Shown here: piece by piece, positions 6,692 through 34,351 of the stretch
Position numbering within the stretch: position 1 is the first letter of the stretch
How the letters are laid out: the number at the start of each line of letters is the position of its first letter
NCBI GenBank assembly: GCA_001303415.1
Contig: LJTN01000021.1
Coordinates: 1-58,397, forward strand
Source: Myxococcales bacterium SG8_38
GTDB lineage: Bacteria > Myxococcota_A > Polyangia > Polyangiales > Houyiibacteriaceae
Direction of reading: 5' to 3'
DNA: 58,397 bases
Notes under the pieces: model-generated
The model's database searches: none
Told to the model about the DNA's origin: nothing
What the model saw: the letters and a program-made list of their open reading frames with translations, nothing else
Program-made: the position numbers and the translations under genes

Positions 6692-7540
6692 TCAACGCGT
6701 AGCCGCGTCCTTGGGACCGGAGGTCAGAACCAACACCTCCTCCAGCCTGGTGAAATCGACCGACGGCGTCACCTCTCCTTCTTGGTGAAGGCCGAGCTCT
6801 TGGTCCCCGATCTTGCTGATGTAGCCGAGGAGAATCGATGCAGGAAACTTCTTCCCGAGCCCAGAGGTGAACACCTCGTCGCCGACGGCCACCTGGTCGT
6901 TGGGCCGGTCGAACTGAATCAGGCAGCGATAGCGGCCTCGCTCGCCGAGCCCCTCGAGGCGGCCTCGCGCGCGTTCCTCACCGACGACCACATCCACGTG
7001 GCTCTCCGGATCGATCGTGAGAAGGACGTCGGCGATCTCTCCCGAGACACGGCGAATCTGTCCCACCAGCCCATCGTTGGTGATGACCGGCATCCCGGCC
7101 CGCAATCCTGCGTGCTCACCTCGATCGACCGCGAGGCGAACCACACGAAAGGAAGGTGAGATGTCCTTGGCGATCACCCGGGCAGTCAGCGTCTCGGTGG
7201 CCACTCTTTCGCGCAAGCCGAGCAGCGACTCCAGCTCGTACACGCGTTGCGCATCGGCGCGAAGCGCGCGCATCTCACGACGGAGTCGGTCGTTCTCGGC
7301 TCGCAGATGATCGTTGTCGCGCTTGACGTCGATGAGATAGACGTAGTCTTCGACCAAGCTCGTCACCCCATCGGCGGCCCATTGTCCGACGTACTGCACT
7401 GGACCGCTCACTCGTAGCAAGCCTCGATCGAGCCATGACAGCTCGGATGGGTCTCTGAGATTGGCGCGAAGGAATGCGGCGGGAATGATCACCAAAGCAA
7501 GTAAGATGGAGGCATCTCGAATTGTCTGGAAATAGTTCAT
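6692..7540 (-). CDS. mreC: Rod shape-determining protein MreC
   Basis: A 282-residue protein with an N-terminal membrane anchor (about residues 10-27), then a predicted coiled coil (about 65-105, rich in Arg/Glu/Leu: NDHLRAENDRLRREMRALR) and a beta-rich periplasmic domain. The stretch VITNDGLVGQIRRVSGEIADVLLTIDP is the typical MreC core (key residues G-L-V-G and the downstream D-P). MreC organises the periplasmic side of the elongasome and contacts PBP2. It follows mreB by 22 bases. Confidence 0.95.
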   Translation of the reverse strand: MNYFQTIRDASILLALVIIPAAFLRANLRDPSELSWLDRGLLRVSGPVQYVGQWAADGVTSLVEDYVYLIDVKRDNDHLRAENDRLRREMRALRADAQRVYELESLLGLRERVATETLTARVIAKDISPSFRVVRLAVDRGEHAGLRAGMPVITNDGLVGQIRRVSGEIADVLLTIDPESHVDVVVGEERARGRLEGLGERGRYRCLIQFDRPNDQVAVGDEVFTSGLGKKFPASILLGYISKIGDQELGLHQEGEVTPSVDFTRLEEVLVLTSGPKDAATR

Positions 7541-7562
7541 CGGCGCGTTCTTGCTCCTCGCG

Positions 7563-8720
<1,158 letters not shown>

Positions 8721-22537: not shown

Positions 22538-23407
22538 ATGGCGAAGCGTCGCGCGTGGTCGATCCTAGGCAATTCCCAGCGCCTCGACGGGGGTGCCATG
22601 TTCGGCAACGCACCGCGCGCGCTTTGGCGCCAATGGATCGAGCCCGACGAGCTGAACCGAATCCCGTTGGCCTGCCGAGCCCTTCTCGTCGAAGACGGCA
22701 ACCGAAGGATTCTCTTTGAAACCGGCATCGGTGCGTTCTTCCCGCCCCAGTTGCGAGACCGGTTCGGCGTCCAGGAAGAGCGCCATGTCCTGCTCGACAA
22801 CCTGCAGCGCGCGGGCTTCTCGGACGCCGACATCGACTGCGTGGTCCTTTCCCATCTGCACTTCGATCACGCCGGAGGGTTGCTGAGCGCATACCACCCG
22901 CAAGAGCCGATGCGTCTGCTCTTCGACAATGCCACCTTCGTAGTGAGCTGGGATGCGTGGCAGCGCGCGCGGTATCCACACGCGAGAGACCGAAAGTCGT
23001 TCATCCCGGAGCTTCCGGCGTTGCTCGAGCAAAGCGGCCGTCTCGAAGTCGTGAAAAGCCATCGCTCCAACGCGCTCGGTGGCGACTACAAGCTTTGGTC
23101 TTCGGAGGGACATACCCCGGGGCTCATGCTGACGGAGATTCCGGGTAACGACGGCCCCGTGGTCTACGCCGCGGATCTGATTCCCGGCCGCGCCTGGGTG
23201 CATCTTCCGATCACGATGGGCTACGATCGATACCCCGAGCGTCTGATCGACGAGAAGAACGACCTGCTGACGCGACTCCACGAGCAGTGCGGGCGGCTCT
23301 TCTTCACCCATGATCCAGAGGTCGCGCTCTGCAGGGTCGCCCGCGACGAGAGGGGCCATTTTTACGCGGCGGACACGCAGCGCGAGCTCGTCGCAGCGCC
23401 TCTTTGA
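22538..23407 (+). CDS. MBL-fold metallo-hydrolase
   Basis: A 289-residue metallo-beta-lactamase-fold protein with the metal motif [16 protein letters not shown] later His is in EGHTPGLML, an Asp in VYAADLIPG and another His in FTHDPEVAL. The set is complete for a dinuclear metal site. It could be a lactonase, thioesterase or glyoxalase-like hydrolase. It lies 34 bases before the 4-hydroxybutyryl-CoA dehydratase-like gene on the same strand, so a thioester or lactone substrate is plausible but unproven. Confidence 0.85.
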
Positions 23408-24926: not shown

Positions 24927-24960
24927 CCAGGCTCCGCGGGATGCTCTACCGTTGGCTCGG

Positions 24961-26097
24961 ATGCGCGCGTGGGGCGGCGTGGGATTGGCGCTGTTGTGGC
25001 TGGGCCTGGTGGGGGCCGGCTGCGACCGAGGTGCGATCGCCGAGACGCCGGTGGCGCTGGCCGAGGCGACTGCCGTCGAGGCGCCGCCGCGAGATCACGC
25101 GGCAGAATCGCAGAAGCTCCTGGAAGAGCCCGATCGCGAAGGGCTGCTCATCGGGGAGTTTCGCTTGGCAGAGGATCCAATCGTCGATGGCGACACGATT
25201 CGGGTCGAAGGCGTGGAGGGCTCGATCCGTCTCTTGTCGATCGACACCGAAGAGAAGCTGCGCGGCAAAGCGAACCGGGCGGCCGCCGAACGAGACTTTG
25301 CCGCGTATCTCGAAAAGAAGCGCGGTAACGCGATACGCCCGCAAAAGGCGGAAACCCCGATGGGAGACCAGGCGACTACATTCGCCGAAAGCTTCTTCGA
25401 GGGGGTCGACGTCGTGCGGCTCGAGCGCGACGACCCGAAAGAGATGCGCGGCCAGTACGGGCGTCTGCTGGCCTATGTCTTCGCCGAAAAAAACGGGCGG
25501 TGGACCAGTTACAACGTCGAGTGCGTGAGGGCGGGCATGAGCCCCTACTTCACGAAGTATGGTTACTCACGTCGGTTCCACAATCACTTGACGCACGCCG
25601 AAGCGGAGGCGCGGGAGGCGCAACGCGGCATCTGGAGCCCCGACGCCAAGGGGTATTCCGATTACGACGAGCGCAAGGCATGGTGGGAGGCACGCGCGCA
25701 GTTCATCCGGGCTTTCGAGCACGAAGCGAACCGGCGCGACGACTACGTGCAACTGAGCCACTGGGATGCAGAGGCGCGCCTCGAAGAAAGACTCGGACAG
25801 GAAGTGACCGTCCTCGGGACGATCGGACAGATCAAGACCTTCAAGGGCCTGGTCCGCGTCTCGTTGAACGGCGCGAGGGGGACTCGGTTTCCGATCATCT
25901 TCCGGGACCGAGCGTTGTTTCGTGAGAGCGGGATGGCCCGTCACGCAGGGGAGCCGGTCACGGTGCGTGGCTTCGTGGAACGCTACGAGAAGAAAGACTA
26001 TCGGACACTCCAGATCGAGGTCACCCAGCCCGGTCAAGCCGCGTTCCCCGCCCTTCCCTGGCCCAACGAGGAAACCGAGTCGAAGCCCGACCGATAA
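24961..26097 (+). CDS. Lipoprotein with staphylococcal-nuclease-like and OB-fold domains
   Basis: About 378 residues from the ATG at 24961; a TTG three codons upstream is possible. The lipoprotein signal ends in LVGAGC. The SNase-like domain runs from about residue 60 to 225: VDGDTIRVEG (active-site Asp and Thr region), IRLLSIDTEEK (Arg and Glu) and RGQYGRLLAYVF (second Arg). It contains an insertion around 100-140. A C-terminal OB-fold-like segment at about 275-355 (GQEVTVLGTIGQIKTFKG ... VTVRGFVERYEKKDYRTLQIEV) could bind nucleic acid. It is predicted to sit on the envelope and cut extracellular DNA or RNA. First of three consecutive exported proteins. Confidence 0.82.
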   Translation: MRAWGGVGLALLWLGLVGAGCDRGAIAETPVALAEATAVEAPPRDHAAESQKLLEEPDREGLLIGEFRLAEDPIVDGDTIRVEGVEGSIRLLSIDTEEKLRGKANRAAAERDFAAYLEKKRGNAIRPQKAETPMGDQATTFAESFFEGVDVVRLERDDPKEMRGQYGRLLAYVFAEKNGRWTSYNVECVRAGMSPYFTKYGYSRRFHNHLTHAEAEAREAQRGIWSPDAKGYSDYDERKAWWEARAQFIRAFEHEANRRDDYVQLSHWDAEARLEERLGQEVTVLGTIGQIKTFKGLVRVSLNGARGTRFPIIFRDRALFRESGMARHAGEPVTVRGFVERYEKKDYRTLQIEVTQPGQAAFPALPWPNEETESKPDR

Positions 26098-26127
26098 CCG
26101 CCGCAACCAAAGCAGCGGGAGGTCGAG

Positions 26128-27753
26128 ATGGCGCGTGTGTGGAAGAGAGCACACTGGCTCGTGTGCTCGTCGTTGGCTCTCGTGGCCTGCGGGCGCGAAG
26201 CAGTCGGAAGCGAACCCCTTTGTCATGGGATCCTGCCCGGGGATCTCGTCATCACGGAGGTGCACGCAAATCCCGATGGAGCGGACGCCGACGGCGAATA
26301 CATCGAGCTCTACAACGCCGGTGGGACACGAGCGCCGCTCGACGGCGTCACGCTTGCTGCAAGCCGCACCGATGGCGCGAGCCCGAGGATGCATCGCTTT
26401 GCAACGGCCGCTGAAATCGACGCTGGCGACTATTTTGTCGTGGGAAATGCCGAGGGTGAAGTCATGCCCGACTACCTCGACTACACGTACGGAGACTCGC
26501 TCGGAAGCCTGCGTAATACGGATGGTCTCCTGTCGCTCTGGTGCGGTGAGCAGCTGCTCGATGAGGTGGCCTACGCCGAGACCGCCGACGGACGCGCCAC
26601 TGAGCTCGACGGCCGGTTCGTTCCCGACGACGAGCTGAACGACGACCCGGCGAGTTGGTGCACCGCGCCCGAGGGAGCCGTAGAGGTCACTCCTGGCAAC
26701 TTCGGGACGCCTGGAAGCCCCAACAGCGACTGCGCTGCATCGCCCACCGAGGGCTTCTGTCTGTCGGGCGACTCCGTTCGTGCCGTCAGGCCGCCCGCGC
26801 CAGGCGATCTACGCATCACCGAGTGGATGGCCAATCCCGCAGGGCCCGATGCCGACTTCGAGTGGGTCGAGGTGGCGTTCGACGCGGATGTCGATCTCAA
26901 CGGCTTTCACTTGGGCCCCGCGCCGCATGCGATGAACGCGGTCGTGGAGGGCGAAGAGTGTTTCGCCGTCGACGCGGGGACCAGGCTCGTCTTCGGGGGG
27001 AGCCCGGCGGCGGCCCCCCGCGTCGACGCGAAGCTGGGCTTCAGCCTGGGCAACTCGGGAGCACGGAGCATCGTGGCGGGCCACGGGGGAACCATCCTTC
27101 ACCGCCTCGACTACGAGACGACGACCGAGGGCTTCGCATGGCAGACGGACCGGGACCAAAAGGTCTGTCTGGCGCTCCCCACCGACGAGTACGCCGAGGG
27201 CAACTTCGGAACGCCGGGGGCGGAGAATCGGCCATGCCCGATCGAGCTAGGGCCGGGCGAGTGCTTCGATGAGCGGGTGCCTCGCCCGGTGGTCAGCCCC
27301 GCGCCCGGGCAGGCGCTCATCACGGAGTGGATGGCCAATCCTTCGGCGGTGGGCAATCGAGAGGGCGAGTGGGTCGAGGTGCGGCTCGATGCGGACCTCG
27401 ACCTCAACGGCCTCACCCTGTCGGATCGAGTAGGGGGTACGACGCTGCTCGAGGACGAGCAGTGTCTCCGCGTGGCCGCGGGCACGCACCTGGTCTTGGC
27501 GCGAAGCACGGATCCGCTCGTCAATGGCGGCATCGAGGACGTGGATGGTGAGCTGTCGCTCTCGCTCAACAATGGCGACGAGACCATTACGCTGCGCGTG
27601 GGAGACGAGGTCTTGGACAGCGTCGCCTATGAGCGGTCTGAGCCTGGCGTGGCGACACAGATCGATGAGCTCGGCAGAATCTGCGCGGCCGTGCGTCCGT
27701 ACGGCGAGGGAGACCTGGGAACGCCCGGCTCGGCGAACCCGCCGTGCCCCTGA
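26128..27753 (+). CDS. Lipoprotein with three lamin-tail domains
   Basis: A 541-residue protein with GGGAGGTCGAG before the ATG. The lipoprotein signal ends in LALVAC (Cys21). Three lamin-tail (LTD) repeats follow, each opening with a hydrophobic ITE strand: LVITEVHANPDGADADGEYIE, LRITEWMANPAGPDADFEWVE and LITEWMANPSAVGNREGEWVE. Each closes with a G(N/D)(F/L)GTPG element (GNFGTPGSPN, GNFGTPGAEN, GDLGTPGSAN). The two later repeats are very alike, pointing to internal duplication. LTDs are immunoglobulin-like folds that in bacteria are often found in secreted proteins with nucleases. Its stop overlaps the start of the HhH barrel gene by 10 bases, so the two are probably translated together. Confidence 0.87.
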   Translation: MARVWKRAHWLVCSSLALVACGREAVGSEPLCHGILPGDLVITEVHANPDGADADGEYIELYNAGGTRAPLDGVTLAASRTDGASPRMHRFATAAEIDAGDYFVVGNAEGEVMPDYLDYTYGDSLGSLRNTDGLLSLWCGEQLLDEVAYAETADGRATELDGRFVPDDELNDDPASWCTAPEGAVEVTPGNFGTPGSPNSDCAASPTEGFCLSGDSVRAVRPPAPGDLRITEWMANPAGPDADFEWVEVAFDADVDLNGFHLGPAPHAMNAVVEGEECFAVDAGTRLVFGGSPAAAPRVDAKLGFSLGNSGARSIVAGHGGTILHRLDYETTTEGFAWQTDRDQKVCLALPTDEYAEGNFGTPGAENRPCPIELGPGECFDERVPRPVVSPAPGQALITEWMANPSAVGNREGEWVEVRLDADLDLNGLTLSDRVGGTTLLEDEQCLRVAAGTHLVLARSTDPLVNGGIEDVDGELSLSLNNGDETITLRVGDEVLDSVAYERSEPGVATQIDELGRICAAVRPYGEGDLGTPGSANPPCP

Positions 27754-29810
27754 GGTCGGCGCTCGTATCGATGTGCCTATTGACGCTCGGACCACGCACC
27801 GCGGCGGCCCTTCCCTATGAGATCTACATCGACATCGAAACCGAGGACGACCTCTACGACCTCTTGGCGACCGACCAGATCTCGGAGGCTTCCTTCGATG
27901 CGCTCTTGTTCCTCCACCAAACGCGCGTCGAGATCAATCGCGCGGACCGGAAGCGGCTCTATCTGCTACCAAACCTCGACTACGCGGACGTCGATCGCAT
28001 CATTGCGTATCGGCAACGAACCGGGGCGATTTATGATCTCCGCGATCTCGTCGCCGCAGGTATCCTCGCGGCCGAGCTGGCAACATCCCTCGACCCATTC
28101 ATTCTCATCGATCCGCCCGAACCGTCGCGGCGCCATGCAGACGCCTTCATCCGAGCCCAAGGACGGTGGAGCGGCCGCCACGATCGTCTGCCGCCCCCGC
28201 TTGCCGCACAGGCGCGCGTGCGCCCGCTCCGAAACCTCGACATCGGGGCCGCGGCAACGCTCACTCGAAATCGCCTGCGTCGCGTTCGGTGGGATGCAAG
28301 CCGGAGCGCGCTCGTCGCGGCGCCCGAGCGGGTTCGCTTCGAGGTCCCAAAGCTGTACCTTCACTGGCAAGGCGCTTCTTGGGAGGTCATCGCAGGAACC
28401 TACCGAGTCGGCTTCGGTCAGCGCGTAACCTTCGATGTGACGGACCAAGCCACGCCCAACGGGTTCTTCGGAGACTACGAGCTCCGAAGCGACGGCGACC
28501 TCACACGCGCCTGCAAGCGTGCCGCCGGAGAGCTCGCGCAATCACCGTGCCCGAGCGTGCCGGTCATCCATGTTACACCGGACTATGCCTGGACCAATCG
28601 TCTGGCGGGCATCGCATTGGGGCTCGAGCAGCCAGCGGGCGACGGATGGGTGCAAGCCCACGCATGGGGCTCCTATCAAGTCCATGGGCTTTCGCAGAGC
28701 GAAATCGCCGTCGCCTCCAGCTGTGAAGACCCTCGGCGAGACGAAGACCCCGGGTGCGGCGCTCCCCGGGTTTACGTGCGCGCGGGCCGGTCGACGGAGC
28801 CCGCGCCCGCGGCCCGATTCGCGACCCTCCCTTTCATGTACGTCGAAGCACTGGGAGGCGGCCATGCAAGCTACTTTTGGAACGCGCGGCGACACCTGGG
28901 CGTGACCGGGTACGGCGCCGCGCCGCGATGGCTCGTCCAAGGCGCAGCGCTCGGCTTCCAAGAGACCGCGCGCAAGCCGTTTGGCGGTGCGTTCGGCGCC
29001 GTAGGTGTCGACGCCGCGTTTGGTTTCCGCTCGCAGGATTTGTTCCTCGAAGTAGCCCGCAGCTTCGACAACCAAGGCGATGGCGGCGGCTTCGGCCTTC
29101 TGTTCCGCAGCGTGACCACCTTGCCCGAAGCAACGGTGGACGTGTCGATGCGGTACTATGGATCCCGGTACGCCAACCCCTACGCCCGCCCCATCTCTGC
29201 GCCTGACGAGCTCGATGGGCTGCGCGCCCGTGACGAGGCGGGGCTCCGGATTGCCGCAACCGCCGACGTGGGCGCTCATGTGACGGTCCGGGCAGTGGCC
29301 GATTGCTGGCGTAGGCTCTCCTCGGGAGCCATGGGAACGGCGTTCTTCGGCCGCGCCGATTGGAAGCTCGGCGCCTCGTGGTCCTTGGCGCTCTGGGTGG
29401 AGCACCAGCACGGTGCGCAAGAGCGTTTGGTCGCGGCCACACAGCTCGCATATGACTCCGCCCGCCCGGTGGCCCTGTCCGCGCAGCTTCGGCATCGGCT
29501 GATCGGAGCCCCGAGGGACACGACGCAGCTTCAGCACGATGTCGCCGCTACTGCGAGCCTCGTCACGCGTCCGGTCGACATGCTGCGCATCCGGTTTCGC
29601 GTCCGCTACGACTTCGAGGATGTTTCCGACAACCACCGCCTGCAGCAAATGCTGTGGGCCTTCGTGGACGCCTCCCTCGCGCCCCGCGAGCGGCACGCCC
29701 TTCGGCTCCGGTACGACCTTCGGGCGTTTCTCGATCGGAGAGCATCGACCATCGCGCGGCTCCCGAACCCGGAGCACTGGTTACTGCTCGAGTACGTCTG
29801 GCGTCACTGA
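27744..29810 (+). CDS. Helix-hairpin-helix outer-membrane beta-barrel protein
   Basis: A 688-residue protein from the GTG at 27744 that overlaps the upstream stop. A signal peptide covers about residues 1-22 (cleavage near TAAA). Then comes a ComEA-like helix-hairpin-helix pair at about 55-125 (EINRADRKRLYLLPNLDYADVDRI, then YDLRDLVAAGIL), a fold that contacts DNA backbones. The rest, about 150-688, alternates polar and hydrophobic residues, is rich in Tyr/Phe/Gly and ends in LLEYVWRH, as expected for a large outer-membrane barrel. A DNA-binding domain on a barrel behind an LTD lipoprotein is the core of the proposed surface DNA system. The tail overlaps the TolC-like gene by 30 bases, tail to tail. 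Confidence 0.8.
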   Translation: MPLRSALVSMCLLTLGPRTAAALPYEIYIDIETEDDLYDLLATDQISEASFDALLFLHQTRVEINRADRKRLYLLPNLDYADVDRIIAYRQRTGAIYDLRDLVAAGILAAELATSLDPFILIDPPEPSRRHADAFIRAQGRWSGRHDRLPPPLAAQARVRPLRNLDIGAAATLTRNRLRRVRWDASRSALVAAPERVRFEVPKLYLHWQGASWEVIAGTYRVGFGQRVTFDVTDQATPNGFFGDYELRSDGDLTRACKRAAGELAQSPCPSVPVIHVTPDYAWTNRLAGIALGLEQPAGDGWVQAHAWGSYQVHGLSQSEIAVASSCEDPRRDEDPGCGAPRVYVRAGRSTEPAPAARFATLPFMYVEALGGGHASYFWNARRHLGVTGYGAAPRWLVQGAALGFQETARKPFGGAFGAVGVDAAFGFRSQDLFLEVARSFDNQGDGGGFGLLFRSVTTLPEATVDVSMRYYGSRYANPYARPISAPDELDGLRARDEAGLRIAATADVGAHVTVRAVADCWRRLSSGAMGTAFFGRADWKLGASWSLALWVEHQHGAQERLVAATQLAYDSARPVALSAQLRHRLIGAPRDTTQLQHDVAATASLVTRPVDMLRIRFRVRYDFEDVSDNHRLQQMLWAFVDASLAPRERHALRLRYDLRAFLDRRASTIARLPNPEHWLLLEYVWRH

Positions 29811-31118
29811 GCGCTCTTCCTCGTTCAGGCGCAAGATTGCGTCGGCGCGGATCACCTGAATCTGCACGCGCCGCATTTGCGCTTCGCGAAGAGCCGTTCG
29901 AGCGGCAGCCACCGCTTCCACGCTCGCTTCCCCGAGCTCGTAGCTCGCTTGGGCTTGCTCGACACGCCGCTCTGCGACCGAAACCAGCTCGCCCGCCAGA
30001 CCGAGCTGCTGCTCCGATTGCTGACGATCGAGGATGGCCTGCGCACGCTCGTCGTCGCTGGCGAGTCGAGCGTCACGGGCGTGCGCGCCGAGCTCGATGG
30101 CGCGCGCGTCGGCGGCGTTCGCCATGGCCACCGCCCTTCCTCCATCCCAAAGCGGAACGGCGAGGTTCACGCCGAGCTGGTACATCGGAAAGACGCGGTC
30201 GTTCACGCCAGCCACGCCGGTCTGGCCCACGACCGCGAGCACGGGCGCGCGGCTCTTTCGATGCATGCGGGCCTCCTGACGTGCCGCATCTCGCTCGCGC
30301 TCCAGCGCCTCTGCTTCCCAATCCGCGCCGGTATCGGACTCGTCGGCTTGGATGGCGAGCAGACCAAGATCGGGCGTGGCTTCGGCGGAAAGCTCCACAC
30401 CAGCGGCGGCCTCGACCGCGAGGCGGGCGTCGGCCAAGCGAGCCCCTGCGTTGGCGGCTTCCAGCTCGGCTTGCAGCTCCTGATAGCGGGCATCGTCGAG
30501 ATCGGATGCAGGGACGTCGCCATCGGCGACGCGGTCCGAGATACGCTCCCGCTCGACAGCGGCATCGTTGGACGCAGCTGCCGCGAAATCGTGATCGAGA
30601 TACGCGGCCAACCAGTCGAGATACGACGCGCGCACCACCACGAGCACCTGCTGCCGAGAAGCGGTCGAGCTCGCGCGGGCAGCGGCATGGTAGGCCTCGG
30701 CTGCCTCGATCGCTGCCCGGTTTTGGCCGTCGTAGAGCGGAGCGCGCATTTGGACGATACCTTCGTATCGCGCGTTGGGACGAAACGCGGTCCGCTCTCC
30801 GACGGTCGGCGAGGCGCGCACGTTGACCACGCGACCGTCGGTGGCCTCGACACGCTCGATGTTGGAGCCCGGTGCGGCGATGGCGCCGACGTTCACCCAA
30901 AACGACGGCCGGAGGCCGGCGCGCGCGGCATCCACCTCGGCATCGGCCCGCTCCGTGGTTGCCTCAATCGCCTCCCAGCGCGCCCGACTCTGAAGCGCAA
31001 TCGCCTCGAGCTCGGGAAGCGTAACCACTTCAGCGGATGCCGCCTCCGGCATGAGCAGTGTGGCAAGCAGCGCCAAGACGGCCGCTACTCGGCCTTTTCC
31101 ATTGCAGAGCTTCGTCAT
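29781..31118 (-). CDS. TolC-family outer-membrane efflux protein
   Basis: A 445-residue protein with a signal peptide (cleavage after EAASA, about residue 29). The mature protein is two long Ala/Arg/Glu-rich helical repeats with the usual TolC pattern (LPELEAIALQSRARWEAI and QLGVNLAVPLWDGGRAVAMANAADARA). It forms the outer-membrane channel of the exporter whose adaptor, ATPase and permease genes lie directly upstream on the same strand (8-base gap to the permease). Confidence 0.9.
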   Translation of the reverse strand: MTKLCNGKGRVAAVLALLATLLMPEAASAEVVTLPELEAIALQSRARWEAIEATTERADAEVDAARAGLRPSFWVNVGAIAAPGSNIERVEATDGRVVNVRASPTVGERTAFRPNARYEGIVQMRAPLYDGQNRAAIEAAEAYHAAARASSTASRQQVLVVVRASYLDWLAAYLDHDFAAAASNDAAVERERISDRVADGDVPASDLDDARYQELQAELEAANAGARLADARLAVEAAAGVELSAEATPDLGLLAIQADESDTGADWEAEALERERDAARQEARMHRKSRAPVLAVVGQTGVAGVNDRVFPMYQLGVNLAVPLWDGGRAVAMANAADARAIELGAHARDARLASDDERAQAILDRQQSEQQLGLAGELVSVAERRVEQAQASYELGEASVEAVAAARTALREAQMRRVQIQVIRADAILRLNEEERSVTPDVLEQ

Positions 31119-31126
31119 GTTCTACC

Positions 31127-32341
31127 TCACTCATGGCGCAGTGCTTCGATGGGCTCGAGCTGCGCCGCACGCCTGGCCGGAAGATAGCCGAAGGCCACTC
31201 CGACACTCGTGCCGAATGCCGCCGCGCCCGCGATGGTGAGAACCGATAGGTTCCCGGACCATGCCATCGCTCGTGCAACCAAGCTCGACGCGACCCACCC
31301 GAGCGCCACCCCGACCATCGAGCCGGTGAAGGACAAGACGACGGCCTCGGCCAGGAACTGCACCAGTATTTGTCGCGGGGACGCGCCAATCGCAGACCGG
31401 ATGCCGATCTCCTTCGTGCGCTCGGCAACCGATACGAGTTGGATGTTCATCACACCGATGCCTCCGACCAGCAGAGACACGGCCGCAATTCCCATGAGAA
31501 GCCCGGTCAGGATGGTCGATACGAATCTGGCCACCTGCGCGGCTTGAGCGGGGCTGGCGATGCGAAAATCATCCGGGTCGTTCTCGGAAAGACGGTGAGA
31601 CCGTCGCATGATGGGGACGGCTTCGACCATTCCGGTTTCCAATAGCCGGATGTTGCGAACTTGCAGCATGAGCTCGTGGTAGCCGATTGGCATTCCGAGA
31701 AAGGCCTCGTAGGTGGTCGCCGGGATGAGGACGATTTCGTCCATGTCCTCGCCGGTCGTCTGCTGCCCTTTGGAAGTGAGGACGCCGATGATGCGGCAAG
31801 GAAGATTGGAGCCAATGGTGATGGTCTCGCCTACGGGATCACGCCGGCCGAAAAGCGCCTGTGCGACGGTCGTCCCGATGACGGCCACCTTGGCACGCTG
31901 CTGCACGTCGGTGTCGTCGAACATACCGCCCACCAGAAGCGGCCACTCCCGAATGTCCACGAACCCCGGCATCGTGCCGGTCACCTTCGTCGGAAACGTA
32001 GTCTGCGCCGATCTCACGTTCTGGACCTCGGTGATCCGAGGAACCACGCGCTCCACGGTCATGGCCTCACGCTTGAGGGCCTCCACGTCGAAATCGGTGA
32101 GCGGCCTCGCGCTACCCCCGAAATCCCTCCGGTTCATGTTGGTCCAGATGTAGACGACGCGAGTCCCGAGAAGCTCGAACTGCTCCATCACCGAGGCCCG
32201 CGCACCCGTACCGAAGCTCACCATGGCCAAGAATGCACCGACTCCGATGGCGAGCCCCAGCATGGTGAGCAGCGTCCGGCCGGGATTCCGGACCGCGGTG
32301 CGCAAGGCACGGCCGAGAATCTCGCTACGCGTTTGCCGCAT
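31127..32341 (-). CDS. MacB-type ABC transporter permease
   Basis: About 404 residues from the ATG at 32341; an ATG at 32371 would add ten. Topology is MacB-like: one N-terminal transmembrane segment (LLTMLGLAIGVGAFLAMV), a large periplasmic MacB_PCD domain (about 45-265), then three transmembrane segments. AERTKEIGIRSAIGASPRQI is the coupling helix and LEPIEALRHE the conserved C-terminus (key residues P-I-E-A-L-R). The start overlaps the ATPase gene by 17 bases. Such pumps move peptides, lipoproteins or small molecules from periplasm to outside by mechanotransmission. Confidence 0.93.
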   Translation of the reverse strand: MRQTRSEILGRALRTAVRNPGRTLLTMLGLAIGVGAFLAMVSFGTGARASVMEQFELLGTRVVYIWTNMNRRDFGGSARPLTDFDVEALKREAMTVERVVPRITEVQNVRSAQTTFPTKVTGTMPGFVDIREWPLLVGGMFDDTDVQQRAKVAVIGTTVAQALFGRRDPVGETITIGSNLPCRIIGVLTSKGQQTTGEDMDEIVLIPATTYEAFLGMPIGYHELMLQVRNIRLLETGMVEAVPIMRRSHRLSENDPDDFRIASPAQAAQVARFVSTILTGLLMGIAAVSLLVGGIGVMNIQLVSVAERTKEIGIRSAIGASPRQILVQFLAEAVVLSFTGSMVGVALGWVASSLVARAMAWSGNLSVLTIAGAAAFGTSVGVAFGYLPARRAAQLEPIEALRHE

Positions 32342-33026
32342 GCCTGTACTCCCCATCCACGATTTTTCCATCGCGCAGGAAGATCTGACGATGACAGAAA
32401 GCCGCCACCTCGGGATCGTGGGTCACGATGATCAGCGTCAAGGAACGCGCTTCGTGAATCTCCTTGAGCAAGCTCATGACCTCGTTTCCGGTTCGGGTGT
32501 CGAGCGCCCCAGTCGGCTCATCGGCGAGCAGGAGGCGAGGCTCCCCCGCAATCGAACGCGCAATGGCAACCCGCTGCCTCTCTCCACCGGAGAGCTGTGC
32601 CGGACGGTGCTTGAGTCGATGGCTCAGGCCGACGCGATCGATGAGCTCGATGGCCCGCGCCTCGCGTTCCTGGCGTCCGACACCCATGTAGTAGAGCGGC
32701 AGCGTAACGTTCTCGAGAACGGTGTGATCCGGGATGAGGTGAAACGATTGGAAGACGAACCCGATGTAGTGAAGGCGCACCCAAGCTCGCTCGCGCGGCG
32801 TCAGTGTCGATACGTCGCGACCCCCGAGACGATAGGTCCCGTACGTGGGGCCGTCGAGGCAACCGAGGATGTTCAGCAGTGTCGACTTGCCCGATCCCGA
32901 GGGTCCGCGGAGCGCGACGATCTCGCCTGAGTCGACGGTCAGGCTCACACCGTCGAGCACGGGCGCACTCATGTTTGGGAACTCTTTGCAAATGCCGCCC
33001 GCGTCGACGATCGGAAAGCCGCTCAT
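32325..33026 (-). CDS. MacB/LolD-type ABC transporter ATPase
   Basis: A 233-residue nucleotide-binding protein. Walker A is [12 protein letters not shown], the signature is [14 protein letters not shown] and Walker B is [22 protein letters not shown] contains the switch His. The family is the MacB/LolD/FtsE group, where the ATPase is separate from the permease. Its start overlaps the adaptor stop (ATGA). Confidence 0.96.
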
Positions 33027-34246
33027 TGCCGATGACCCCGAAGCGACAAGGAAGGCGCCGCCGCCGCGTTGTCGTCATTGAGCGCAAGCCCAATGGCGAT
33101 CTTGTCGTTGATGCGAAGGCTCTCGGGCTCGGTAGGACGCACCTCCGTCATTGCCCCATCGGAAAGGCCGGGCTCCACCGCTACCTCCTCGAGCTTGGTG
33201 CTTTCGACGCGCCAAACGCGAGTGCGCGCGGGTGCGGACGGAGCGCCCTCCGGTGTGAATCGAAGCGATGCCTCTCGAACCGCCAAGACGTCATCGACCT
33301 CGGCGACCTTGATGCGCACCTGGGCCGTCATGCCCGGGAGCAGCACCCGCTCCGGGTTGCTGGTCTTCAGCGTGACGTCGTAGAAGATCGCCCCGTATTC
33401 GACTTTCGGGTCGGGGCTGATGTGCTTCACGGTGGCCTCGAACACCTTGCCGGGATACGTGGGGACCTCGAACTTGGCCCCCTGCCCGACCACGACCTCG
33501 CCGATGTCGGCCTCGCCGATGGGAGCCCTCACGTGCATCTCCTCGACCGGAGCCCCGATTCGGAACAATCGGTTTCGAGGTCCGACGATCATGCCCGTGC
33601 GCGGAGGCACCTCCAAAACCAGGCCCGCGCGCGGCGCCACGATGCTCGTGCGCTTGCGTTCGAGGCTGCGGAGCGAGAGCCGCCTCTGCGCGGCGGAGCG
33701 CTCCGCCCGGGCTGCCTGGAGCGCGGCTCGTGCTTTGGCCGTTTCCGAGCGAGCGATTTCGAGCACGCGCTCGCTGGCCAGGCCCTTCTCCGCCAATCGC
33801 TCCGTTCGCTCGAGCGCCTGCTTGGCGCGTTGGACAGCCGCCTCTGCCTCGGCAATTCGCGCACGCGCCACTTCGAGCTCCGCTCGCGACACGTCGACGG
33901 CCATTTGGGCTGAGCCTTCGTCCAGCTGAGCGAGGAGCTGGCCGTTTTCGACCTGATCTCCCGGCTCGACGAAGACCTCCACGAGCTGGCCTTCGATCGG
34001 CGCCGGCACCTCCACCTCGTCGGTCAGCTCGAGATGCCCGGTCACCCGGATCTCCTTCACGATCGAAGTCCGAGTCACGGGCGTAACACGGTAGGGGCTA
34101 TCCTGCGGACGTCGCGACACGAAGTACGCGGTCACCGCACCCACCATCAACAGCACCACGGTCGCGATTGCGATCACGCGTCTGCGGGGCGATTCGAGCC
34201 GCGGAATCTCGAGCCTCTCGTCAACCGTTGTGGGCGTCGCTTCCAT
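33023..34246 (-). CDS. Periplasmic adaptor (HlyD/MacA family)
   Basis: About 407 residues from the ATG at 34246. One N-terminal transmembrane segment (VIAIATVVLLMVGAVTAYFV) is followed by a barrel-sandwich/lipoyl half (VEVPAPIEGQLVEVFVEPGD), a long coiled-coil hairpin at about 105-190, the second lipoyl half (IVAPRAGLVLEV) and a beta-barrel domain. It should bridge the MacB-type permease and the TolC-like channel. It is the first gene of the four-gene exporter operon. No regulator or substrate gene lies beside it. Confidence 0.93.
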   Translation of the reverse strand: MEATPTTVDERLEIPRLESPRRRVIAIATVVLLMVGAVTAYFVSRRPQDSPYRVTPVTRTSIVKEIRVTGHLELTDEVEVPAPIEGQLVEVFVEPGDQVENGQLLAQLDEGSAQMAVDVSRAELEVARARIAEAEAAVQRAKQALERTERLAEKGLASERVLEIARSETAKARAALQAARAERSAAQRRLSLRSLERKRTSIVAPRAGLVLEVPPRTGMIVGPRNRLFRIGAPVEEMHVRAPIGEADIGEVVVGQGAKFEVPTYPGKVFEATVKHISPDPKVEYGAIFYDVTLKTSNPERVLLPGMTAQVRIKVAEVDDVLAVREASLRFTPEGAPSAPARTRVWRVESTKLEEVAVEPGLSDGAMTEVRPTEPESLRINDKIAIGLALNDDNAAAAPSLSLRGHRQ

Positions 34247-34351
34247 GCTGTTGATACACGTAGGCTGTCTGGCTCGGGGGCGCCAGCGCCAGCAGAATAC
34301 GCACCAAGGGCCCAAAATGACACCTCGGAAGGACCAGGCGCGTCGCTGGGG

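Follow-up and report, generated by a model that had tools for sequence, protein, structure and literature searches.

The nearest characterised protein to the system described here is Hvo_1477, a thermonuclease lipoprotein of Haloferax volcanii. Strains deleted for it grow less well on DNA, which serves mainly as a source of phosphorus (PMC3929857), and the protein is said to carry a lamin-tail domain (LTD; PMC5118699). Our subject is a set of three consecutive genes in a 58,397-nucleotide stretch of DNA (the window), which is one contig (LJTN01000021.1) of Myxococcales bacterium SG8_38, a metagenome-assembled genome (MAG) of 3.62 Mb that is 92% complete (GCA_001303415.1). The genes encode a staphylococcal-nuclease (SNase) lipoprotein with an OB fold, a lipoprotein with three LTDs, and a likely outer-membrane barrel with a ComEA-type helix-hairpin-helix (HhH) domain. 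As in Hvo_1477 and the haloarchaeal MBL+LTD lipoproteins called 'ComA', LTDs are here paired with SNase or MBL proteins, and lipobox motifs are present (PMC3929857, PMC5118699). The haloarchaeal proteins differ in being single polypeptides of archaea, which have no outer membrane, and the available parts of these two papers name no barrel, HhH domain or multi-LTD scaffold.

ExeM of Shewanella and Xds of Vibrio cholerae likewise combine an LTD, an OB-type nucleic-acid-binding part and a nuclease, and in both the OB-type part is described as required for activity (PMC6746945, PMC6085458). Unlike the present locus, each is one protein with an EEP nuclease rather than an SNase, and no barrel partner is described in the available portions of these papers. 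The function of bacterial LTDs is regarded as unsettled (PMC6085458). The HhH domain resembles that of ComEA: a profile of the barrel family matched the solved ComEA structure (8dss) at 4e-14 over about residues 60–124, with no match further on. Unlike ComEA, this HhH domain is fused to a likely outer-membrane barrel and has lost the hairpin glycines; the source genome encodes a separate ComEA-like protein besides the barrel. Helicobacter NucT, a PLD nuclease, is the closest likeness of the one PLD-type module nuclease scanned from related loci, by a match far below the cut-off, and we know of no LTD or barrel partner for it. NucT of H. pylori has been implicated in purine salvage and in transformation (PMC5714352). 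In Riemerella anatipestifer, RA0C_RS04915/RS04920 and the HhH protein RS02645 make up an outer-membrane, surface and HhH trio needed for transformation (PMC8459023). Compared by description only, that trio differs in having the HhH on a separate protein and a DUF5689/DUF5017 partner instead of an LTD, with no paired nuclease in the portions of the paper available. The component parts of our locus are members of known families. For the set of LTD protein, HhH-barrel and nuclease, we found no description in the literature searched, most subscription papers and preprints lying outside its scope; this agrees with an earlier note made from the letters of this DNA (the original prediction), which knew of no characterised system with this set.

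The LTD protein and the HhH-barrel form a constant pair, beside which unrelated nucleases are exchanged. We searched a profile of 16 barrels of the genus against 377 genomes of the phylum. It matched 80, of which 61 were judged barrel-bearing and 19 matched the HhH part only; three candidates were scored per genome, so these counts are lower bounds. We searched the DNA around 57 barrel loci or pieces with iterated profiles seeded by the window domains and with two added profiles, built for hydrolases that recur among the neighbours (PLD and MBL). Two pieces (L109 and L142), being second pieces of counted barrels, were left out of the tally, which covers 55 loci in 53 genomes and 15 families and counts genes on the same strand within 6 kb of the barrel. 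An LTD gene is present at 44 of the 55 loci, a nuclease-like gene at 45, and both at 42. Where at least 3 kb is available on both sides (33 loci), LTD and nuclease-like genes both occur in 30. The original prediction had proposed looking for nucleases near LTD and HhH-barrel pairs in relatives, and 42 of the 44 loci with LTD and barrel outside the genus have a nuclease-like gene, drawn from three superfamilies; at the two exceptions (L116 and L119), the contigs are cut near the barrel. Three gene orders were seen. The first is LTDx1, SNase-OB, LTDx2-5, small SNase and barrel, with parts missing in some loci; the second is barrel, LTDx1-5 and, in some, a small SNase; the third is LTDx3, barrel and small SNase. 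The genus shows the first order, but lacks its initial LTD gene and its small SNase. In the loci beyond the genus, parts of the module were found in up to 57 loci or pieces, against at most five for other clusters (antisense shadow frames aside).

Four nuclease-like kinds occur at the locus, namely SNase-OB, a small SNase, a PLD protein and an MBL protein. All 29 small SNases match PF00565, and their Asp, Asp, Thr, Arg, Glu and Arg sites are invariant (29/29), with the Asp40 position nearly so. Strong matches to the PLD protein were found in nine loci, all with the H-x-K-x4-D motif, and the three scanned match PLDc_2; for the one compared with NCBIfam, NucT was the nearest model (56 bits, cut-off 297). 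The MBL protein has strong matches in seven loci, with H-x-H-x-D-H in 7/7 and Lactamase_B in both proteins scanned; ComEC/Rec2 was the nearest NCBIfam model for the one compared. On a quick maximum-likelihood tree of 54 barrels, the kind of nuclease mostly tracks the phylogeny of the barrel. One clade (support 97) takes in eight of the nine PLD loci, L110 being the exception. Nested within this PLD clade are the five MBL loci that the tree includes, and their sister is L114 (support 97), which has both PLD and MBL and sits at the nuclease switch. SNase loci are spread over several barrel clades. Two genomes (G235 and G218) each combine an SNase module with a PLD module, and the two modules belong to different clades. 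Family f30 occurs in two distant barrel clades, which suggests horizontal spread or an old duplication. What speaks most strongly for a role of this pair in nucleic-acid processing is that LTD protein and barrel stay constant while unrelated nucleases replace one another next to them; this strongly suggests that the module handles nucleic acid at the envelope.

Some long open frames lie directly downstream of barrels in family f26 (L102:4518–7784 and L104:1–2640) and match PLD profiles; the L104 frame combines two PLD stretches with a weak LTD match near its N terminus.

In the window, the features are as follows.

24961–26097, + strand: SNase-OB lipoprotein gene, 378 aa, PF00565 at 50.3 bits, inferred start codon
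25183–25638, + strand: staphylococcal-nuclease domain, with R90, E98 and R168 and the acidic ligands D76, D78 and D95
25741–26043, + strand: C-terminal OB-fold domain (residues 261–361), from the AlphaFold2 (AF2) model and PDB matches
26117–26123, + strand: ribosome-binding-site-like GGGAGGT, picked by eye, 4 bases 5' of the LTD start codon
26128–27753, + strand: triple lamin-tail-domain lipoprotein gene, 541 aa, lipobox LVAC, PF00932 at 87.7 bits in three stretches
26227–26742, + strand: lamin-tail domain 1 (approximate), PF00932, limits set by hand
26794–27243, + strand: lamin-tail domain 2 (approximate), PF00932, limits set by hand
27292–27750, + strand: lamin-tail domain 3 (approximate), PF00932, limits set by hand
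27744–29810, + strand: HhH-barrel gene, 688 aa, GTG start, overlapping the LTD gene by 10 nt
27744–27809, + strand: signal peptide of the barrel protein (approximate), picked by eye from the sequence
27918–28115, + strand: ComEA-type helix-hairpin-helix domain, with the hairpin LPNLD in place of LPGxG
28152–29807, + strand: predicted outer-membrane beta-barrel, from residue alternation and the C-terminal Phe of homologues, with strands in a poor model

All three genes lie on the same strand; a 30-nt gap separates the SNase gene from the LTD gene. The original prediction had named three consecutive exported proteins, the second and third with overlapping genes. The overlap is indeed there (10 nt), and matches to PF00565, PF00932 and PF12836 bear out the three proteins. 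The SNase domain scores well above the PF00565 cut-off of 21 bits. A TTG at 24952 is an alternative start of this gene, and the Cys at residue 21 is in the lipoprotein position, where it is a probable lipid anchor. The sites R90, E98, R168, D76, D78 and D95 are invariant in all 28 rows with letters there. The equivalents of Asp19, Asp21, Thr22, Arg35, Asp40, Glu43 and Arg87 (SNase numbering) are likewise invariant in 28/28 SNase-OB rows, and Thr41 varies. The window SNase has a complete set of catalytic residues and is predicted to be an active nuclease. Its C-terminal domain has no Pfam match. In the AF2 model, residues 261–360 have ten-residue block means of 66–89 and the order strand-strand-strand-helix-strand-strand. 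Foldseek gave 128 PDB matches to this domain at E≤0.001; the best 50 of the 128 are mostly OB-fold-containing chains, and the top matches include OB-fold-containing tRNA synthetases, the MCM N-terminal domain, Stn1-Ten1 and an OBody. The predicted OB fold is therefore very likely right. The remainder of the model is poor, the SNase half included (overall mean 48.8), and there the family is clear by sequence. The PADLOC model PDLC01096, labelled SNc+LTD, matches the window SNase at 1.3e-12, so an SNase-LTD protein stands in PADLOC as a defence candidate.

For the LTD protein, the PF00932 score compares with a cut-off of 34.3 bits, and 44 of the 45 LTD proteins scanned, the window's included, match this family at E≤0.001. 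A second protein with SNase and LTD in one chain is encoded at L120:2506–4329 (G088), on the opposite strand and about 1 kb from the barrel module; its architecture resembles that described for Hvo_1477. Three barrel neighbours have no Pfam match at E≤0.01: L113:9687–11852 (G144), L139:8253–9374 (G265) and L110:3330–5072 (G191). These are possible unrecognised or divergent LTD replacements; the L110 neighbour matches our own LTD profile weakly.

As a single protein, the window barrel scores 22.3 bits against PF12836 (HHH_3), under the Pfam cut-off of 27. All 49 barrels scanned match this family at E≤0.01, and the HhH assignment is firm at the family level. The HhH-type models that match the barrels are HHH, HHH_3 and HHH_6, plus the motif-sharing T2SSK and PsbU. 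The ComEA subfamily model TIGR01259 gives only 11.7 bits for the window protein, far below its cut-off of 152.35. The GTG start is found at the matching place in several members of the genus, where starts were chosen by a script. From residue 137 on, hydrophobic and polar residues alternate with a two-residue period at 252 positions, compared with 114±19 (maximum 184) in 1000 column shuffles. A C-terminal Phe is the usual signal of outer-membrane barrels. It is present in 41 of 49 homologues, with Tyr in two; the window protein ends in His. An AlphaFold model of the whole protein, made from eight sequences, has a mean pLDDT of 41, which is too poor to decide on a barrel. Foldseek matches of this model all have E above 0.001; many of the best 50 are outer-membrane barrels, and we did not use them as evidence. 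Among the ten Pfam families that match the 49 barrels at E≤0.01, neither Plug nor TonB_dep_Rec is found. Non-HhH families match at most two of the 49, and the sole barrel family, MtrB_PioB, matches one. Of the ComEA-like HhH barrel in the original prediction, the HhH part stands; the third protein is likely an outer-membrane barrel, judging from the alternation and the C-terminal Phe.

Weak HhH-only matches at G087:C15:61565–61771 and G248:C64:136964–137170 lie in open frames of about 760–780 aa, one with a stop, which may be still more distant barrels. At L124 (G102), a 253-aa protein with two HHH_3 domains (7241–8002) precedes the barrel, with no LTD or recognised nuclease nearby. A tblastn search of plasmids with two barrels found nothing.

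The module is conserved in the genus. A single-sequence search found the barrel in 17 of the 18 other genus genomes and in none of the 38 genomes searched elsewhere in the family and order. Of 19 genus loci fetched, 12 have SNase (some partial), LTD and barrel genes adjacent to each other, and seven are broken by a contig end or a run of 100 N. In G005, the genus genome where no barrel was matched, SNase and LTD matches lie within 1 kb of each other on the same contig. Genus genomes have at most one LTD match and at most two SNase matches each. The source genome has one of each in 3.62 Mb, both at this locus; because these sole matches sit here and the set recurs across families, the association is more than chance. 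The 38 barrel-less relatives have up to 13 LTD matches among the matches listed, and 19 have an SNase. As a partial control, among the matches listed only one of them (G050) has an SNase beside an LTD, on opposite strands. Apparent losses, next to the barrel, of the SNase or of most of the LTD protein in G013 and G014 were rejected, as the breaks coincide with 100-N runs. Such runs were seen in these single-contig MAGs at L031, L039, L048 and L056, so the MAGs are joined scaffolds.

We give a probability of roughly 60% to the reading that the module carries out envelope processing of extracellular nucleic acid, with the LTD protein as a scaffold and the barrel passing fragments, probably for nutrition. 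The lipoprotein nucleases (here SNase-OB) would work at the outer membrane or just beneath it, cutting DNA or RNA, as the active sites support, and the OB domain would hold the substrate for the nuclease. The lipid-anchored LTD protein is expected at the outer membrane with the nucleases, probably on the surface, where the multi-LTD lipoprotein could act as a scaffold or receptor that unites nuclease, substrate and barrel. The barrel would be the outer-membrane part, with its N-terminal HhH in the periplasm or inside the barrel. Cut fragments would probably traverse the barrel, meet the HhH domain and be handed on. We infer that the substrate is DNA rather than RNA. The most likely use would be nutritional, with phosphorus, nitrogen or nucleotides salvaged from environmental or prey DNA; we propose this by analogy with growth on DNA through Hvo_1477. 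The parts, their conservation, the intact active sites, the recurrent association and the nuclease exchange are supported by computation. At the level of sequence, natural uptake, phosphate scavenging and predation, all named in the original prediction, would look alike. Its proposal of an envelope nucleic-acid module is well supported by the nuclease co-occurrence; DNA capture by the LTD protein and transit through the barrel are conjectural.

More tentatively, and with the odds somewhat against it, the barrel could be an outer-membrane channel dedicated to nucleic-acid fragments, carrying a ComEA-type head and served by exchangeable LTD-scaffolded surface nucleases, so forming a pilus-independent import system of diderm bacteria that has spread between families and swapped nucleases. 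By what route DNA or DNA fragments get through the outer membrane when no type IV pilus is involved is an open question. The constant LTD and HhH-barrel pair with a replaceable nuclease offers a concrete, testable gene set for fragment entry and for LTD function. The phylum is known for predation. A barrel that did act as a channel would, as far as we know, be the first importer of this kind linked to the use of extracellular DNA in this phylum, with relevance to the cycling of phosphorus from DNA in the environment.

Several observations weigh against nutritional processing of nucleic acid through an LTD-scaffolded barrel. A canonical HhH hairpin makes backbone contacts through its G-x-G. The second Gly is found in none of the 69 sequences aligned and the first in only 21 (it is missing in 48), so DNA binding by this HhH is uncertain. 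The barrel region has no solved-structure relative by sequence profile, and the fold matches of its model are weak. Counted with guessed start codons and some incomplete rows, the lipobox pattern is present in 15 of 28 SNase-OB proteins, in 20 of 29 small SNases and in 42 of 76 LTD proteins (20, 21 and 44 with a looser pattern); a lipid anchor is therefore not general as far as tested. The well-flanked exceptions are L103, with a nuclease and no LTD, and L124 and L139, with neither. No phosphate, nucleotidase or nucleoside-transport genes were recognised among the recurrent neighbours, of which the smaller clusters were only partly annotated. The LTD is described as dispensable for the activity of V. 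cholerae Xds (PMC6746945) and largely so for that of ExeM (PMC6085458).

An outer-membrane entry for natural transformation, in which the nuclease trims or nicks bound DNA, the HhH-barrel draws it into the periplasm and one strand is then taken further by ComEC, seems to us an unlikely role. The fusion of a ComEA-type domain to the barrel, the separate ComEA-like protein of the source genome and the ComEC-like and NucT-like nucleases that adjoin barrels would fit it, as would the description from Riemerella of outer-membrane, surface and HhH proteins needed for transformation beyond the known machinery (PMC8459023). ComEC was found in 45 of the 46 genomes chosen for this test, all barrel-bearing. 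This co-occurrence does not discriminate, because ComEC is widespread in controls too (10 of 14 genomes, including E. coli); the barrel-bearing genome without detected ComEC (G182) is 94% complete. The presence of ComEC permits uptake without requiring it. The source genome has secretins, one of which may serve a pilus, intact non-specific nucleases would degrade transforming DNA, and the hairpin is non-canonical. We consider a surface barrier or matrix, in which the nucleases would break down DNA of extracellular, phage or biofilm origin while the barrel does no more than anchor the HhH and LTD parts, quite unlikely. The SNase and LTD parts would work in it with no need for transport, and PADLOC models match the window SNase (SNc+LTD) as well as the PLD and MBL proteins of two relatives. 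Extracellular LTD nucleases are also described as modulating biofilms (PMC6746945). However, PADLOC matches neither the LTD nor the barrel protein of the window, no systematic search for co-located defence genes having been made, and a barrel of more than 500 aa would be a costly anchor when the window's other two parts seem lipid-anchored.

The hydrolases could also act on another phosphodiester, such as envelope polymers, with the OB and HhH domains binding sugar or protein. The PLD and MBL superfamilies include members with other substrates, and the canonical hairpin is missing from the HhH. We regard this as very improbable; the complete SNase active sites, together with NucT and ComEC/Rec2 as the nearest models, point to nucleic acid as the common substrate. 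We find it scarcely credible that the genes stand together by chance, or as an operon peculiar to the genus and lacking a common function. Synteny in the genus takes in unrelated upstream genes (HpaB, Usp, MBL), and conservation in the genus alone therefore proves little, but the recurrence of module parts in the outside loci far exceeds that of other clusters, and the three distinct gene orders and the 55-locus tally also speak against it. Envelope processing of extracellular nucleic acid is the reading we prefer.

Among the neighbours of the module in the window, the upstream HpaB, MBL (22538–23407) and Usp genes were rejected as module parts; they are shared within the genus and are not among the clusters found in at least four outside loci. 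The downstream TolC/MacB set was rejected on the same grounds. This set, at 29781–34315 on the minus strand, encodes a TolC-like protein, a MacB-like permease, an ABC ATPase and a membrane-fusion-type protein (names partly assigned by eye). It is convergent with the module and adjoins it in only part of the genus loci.

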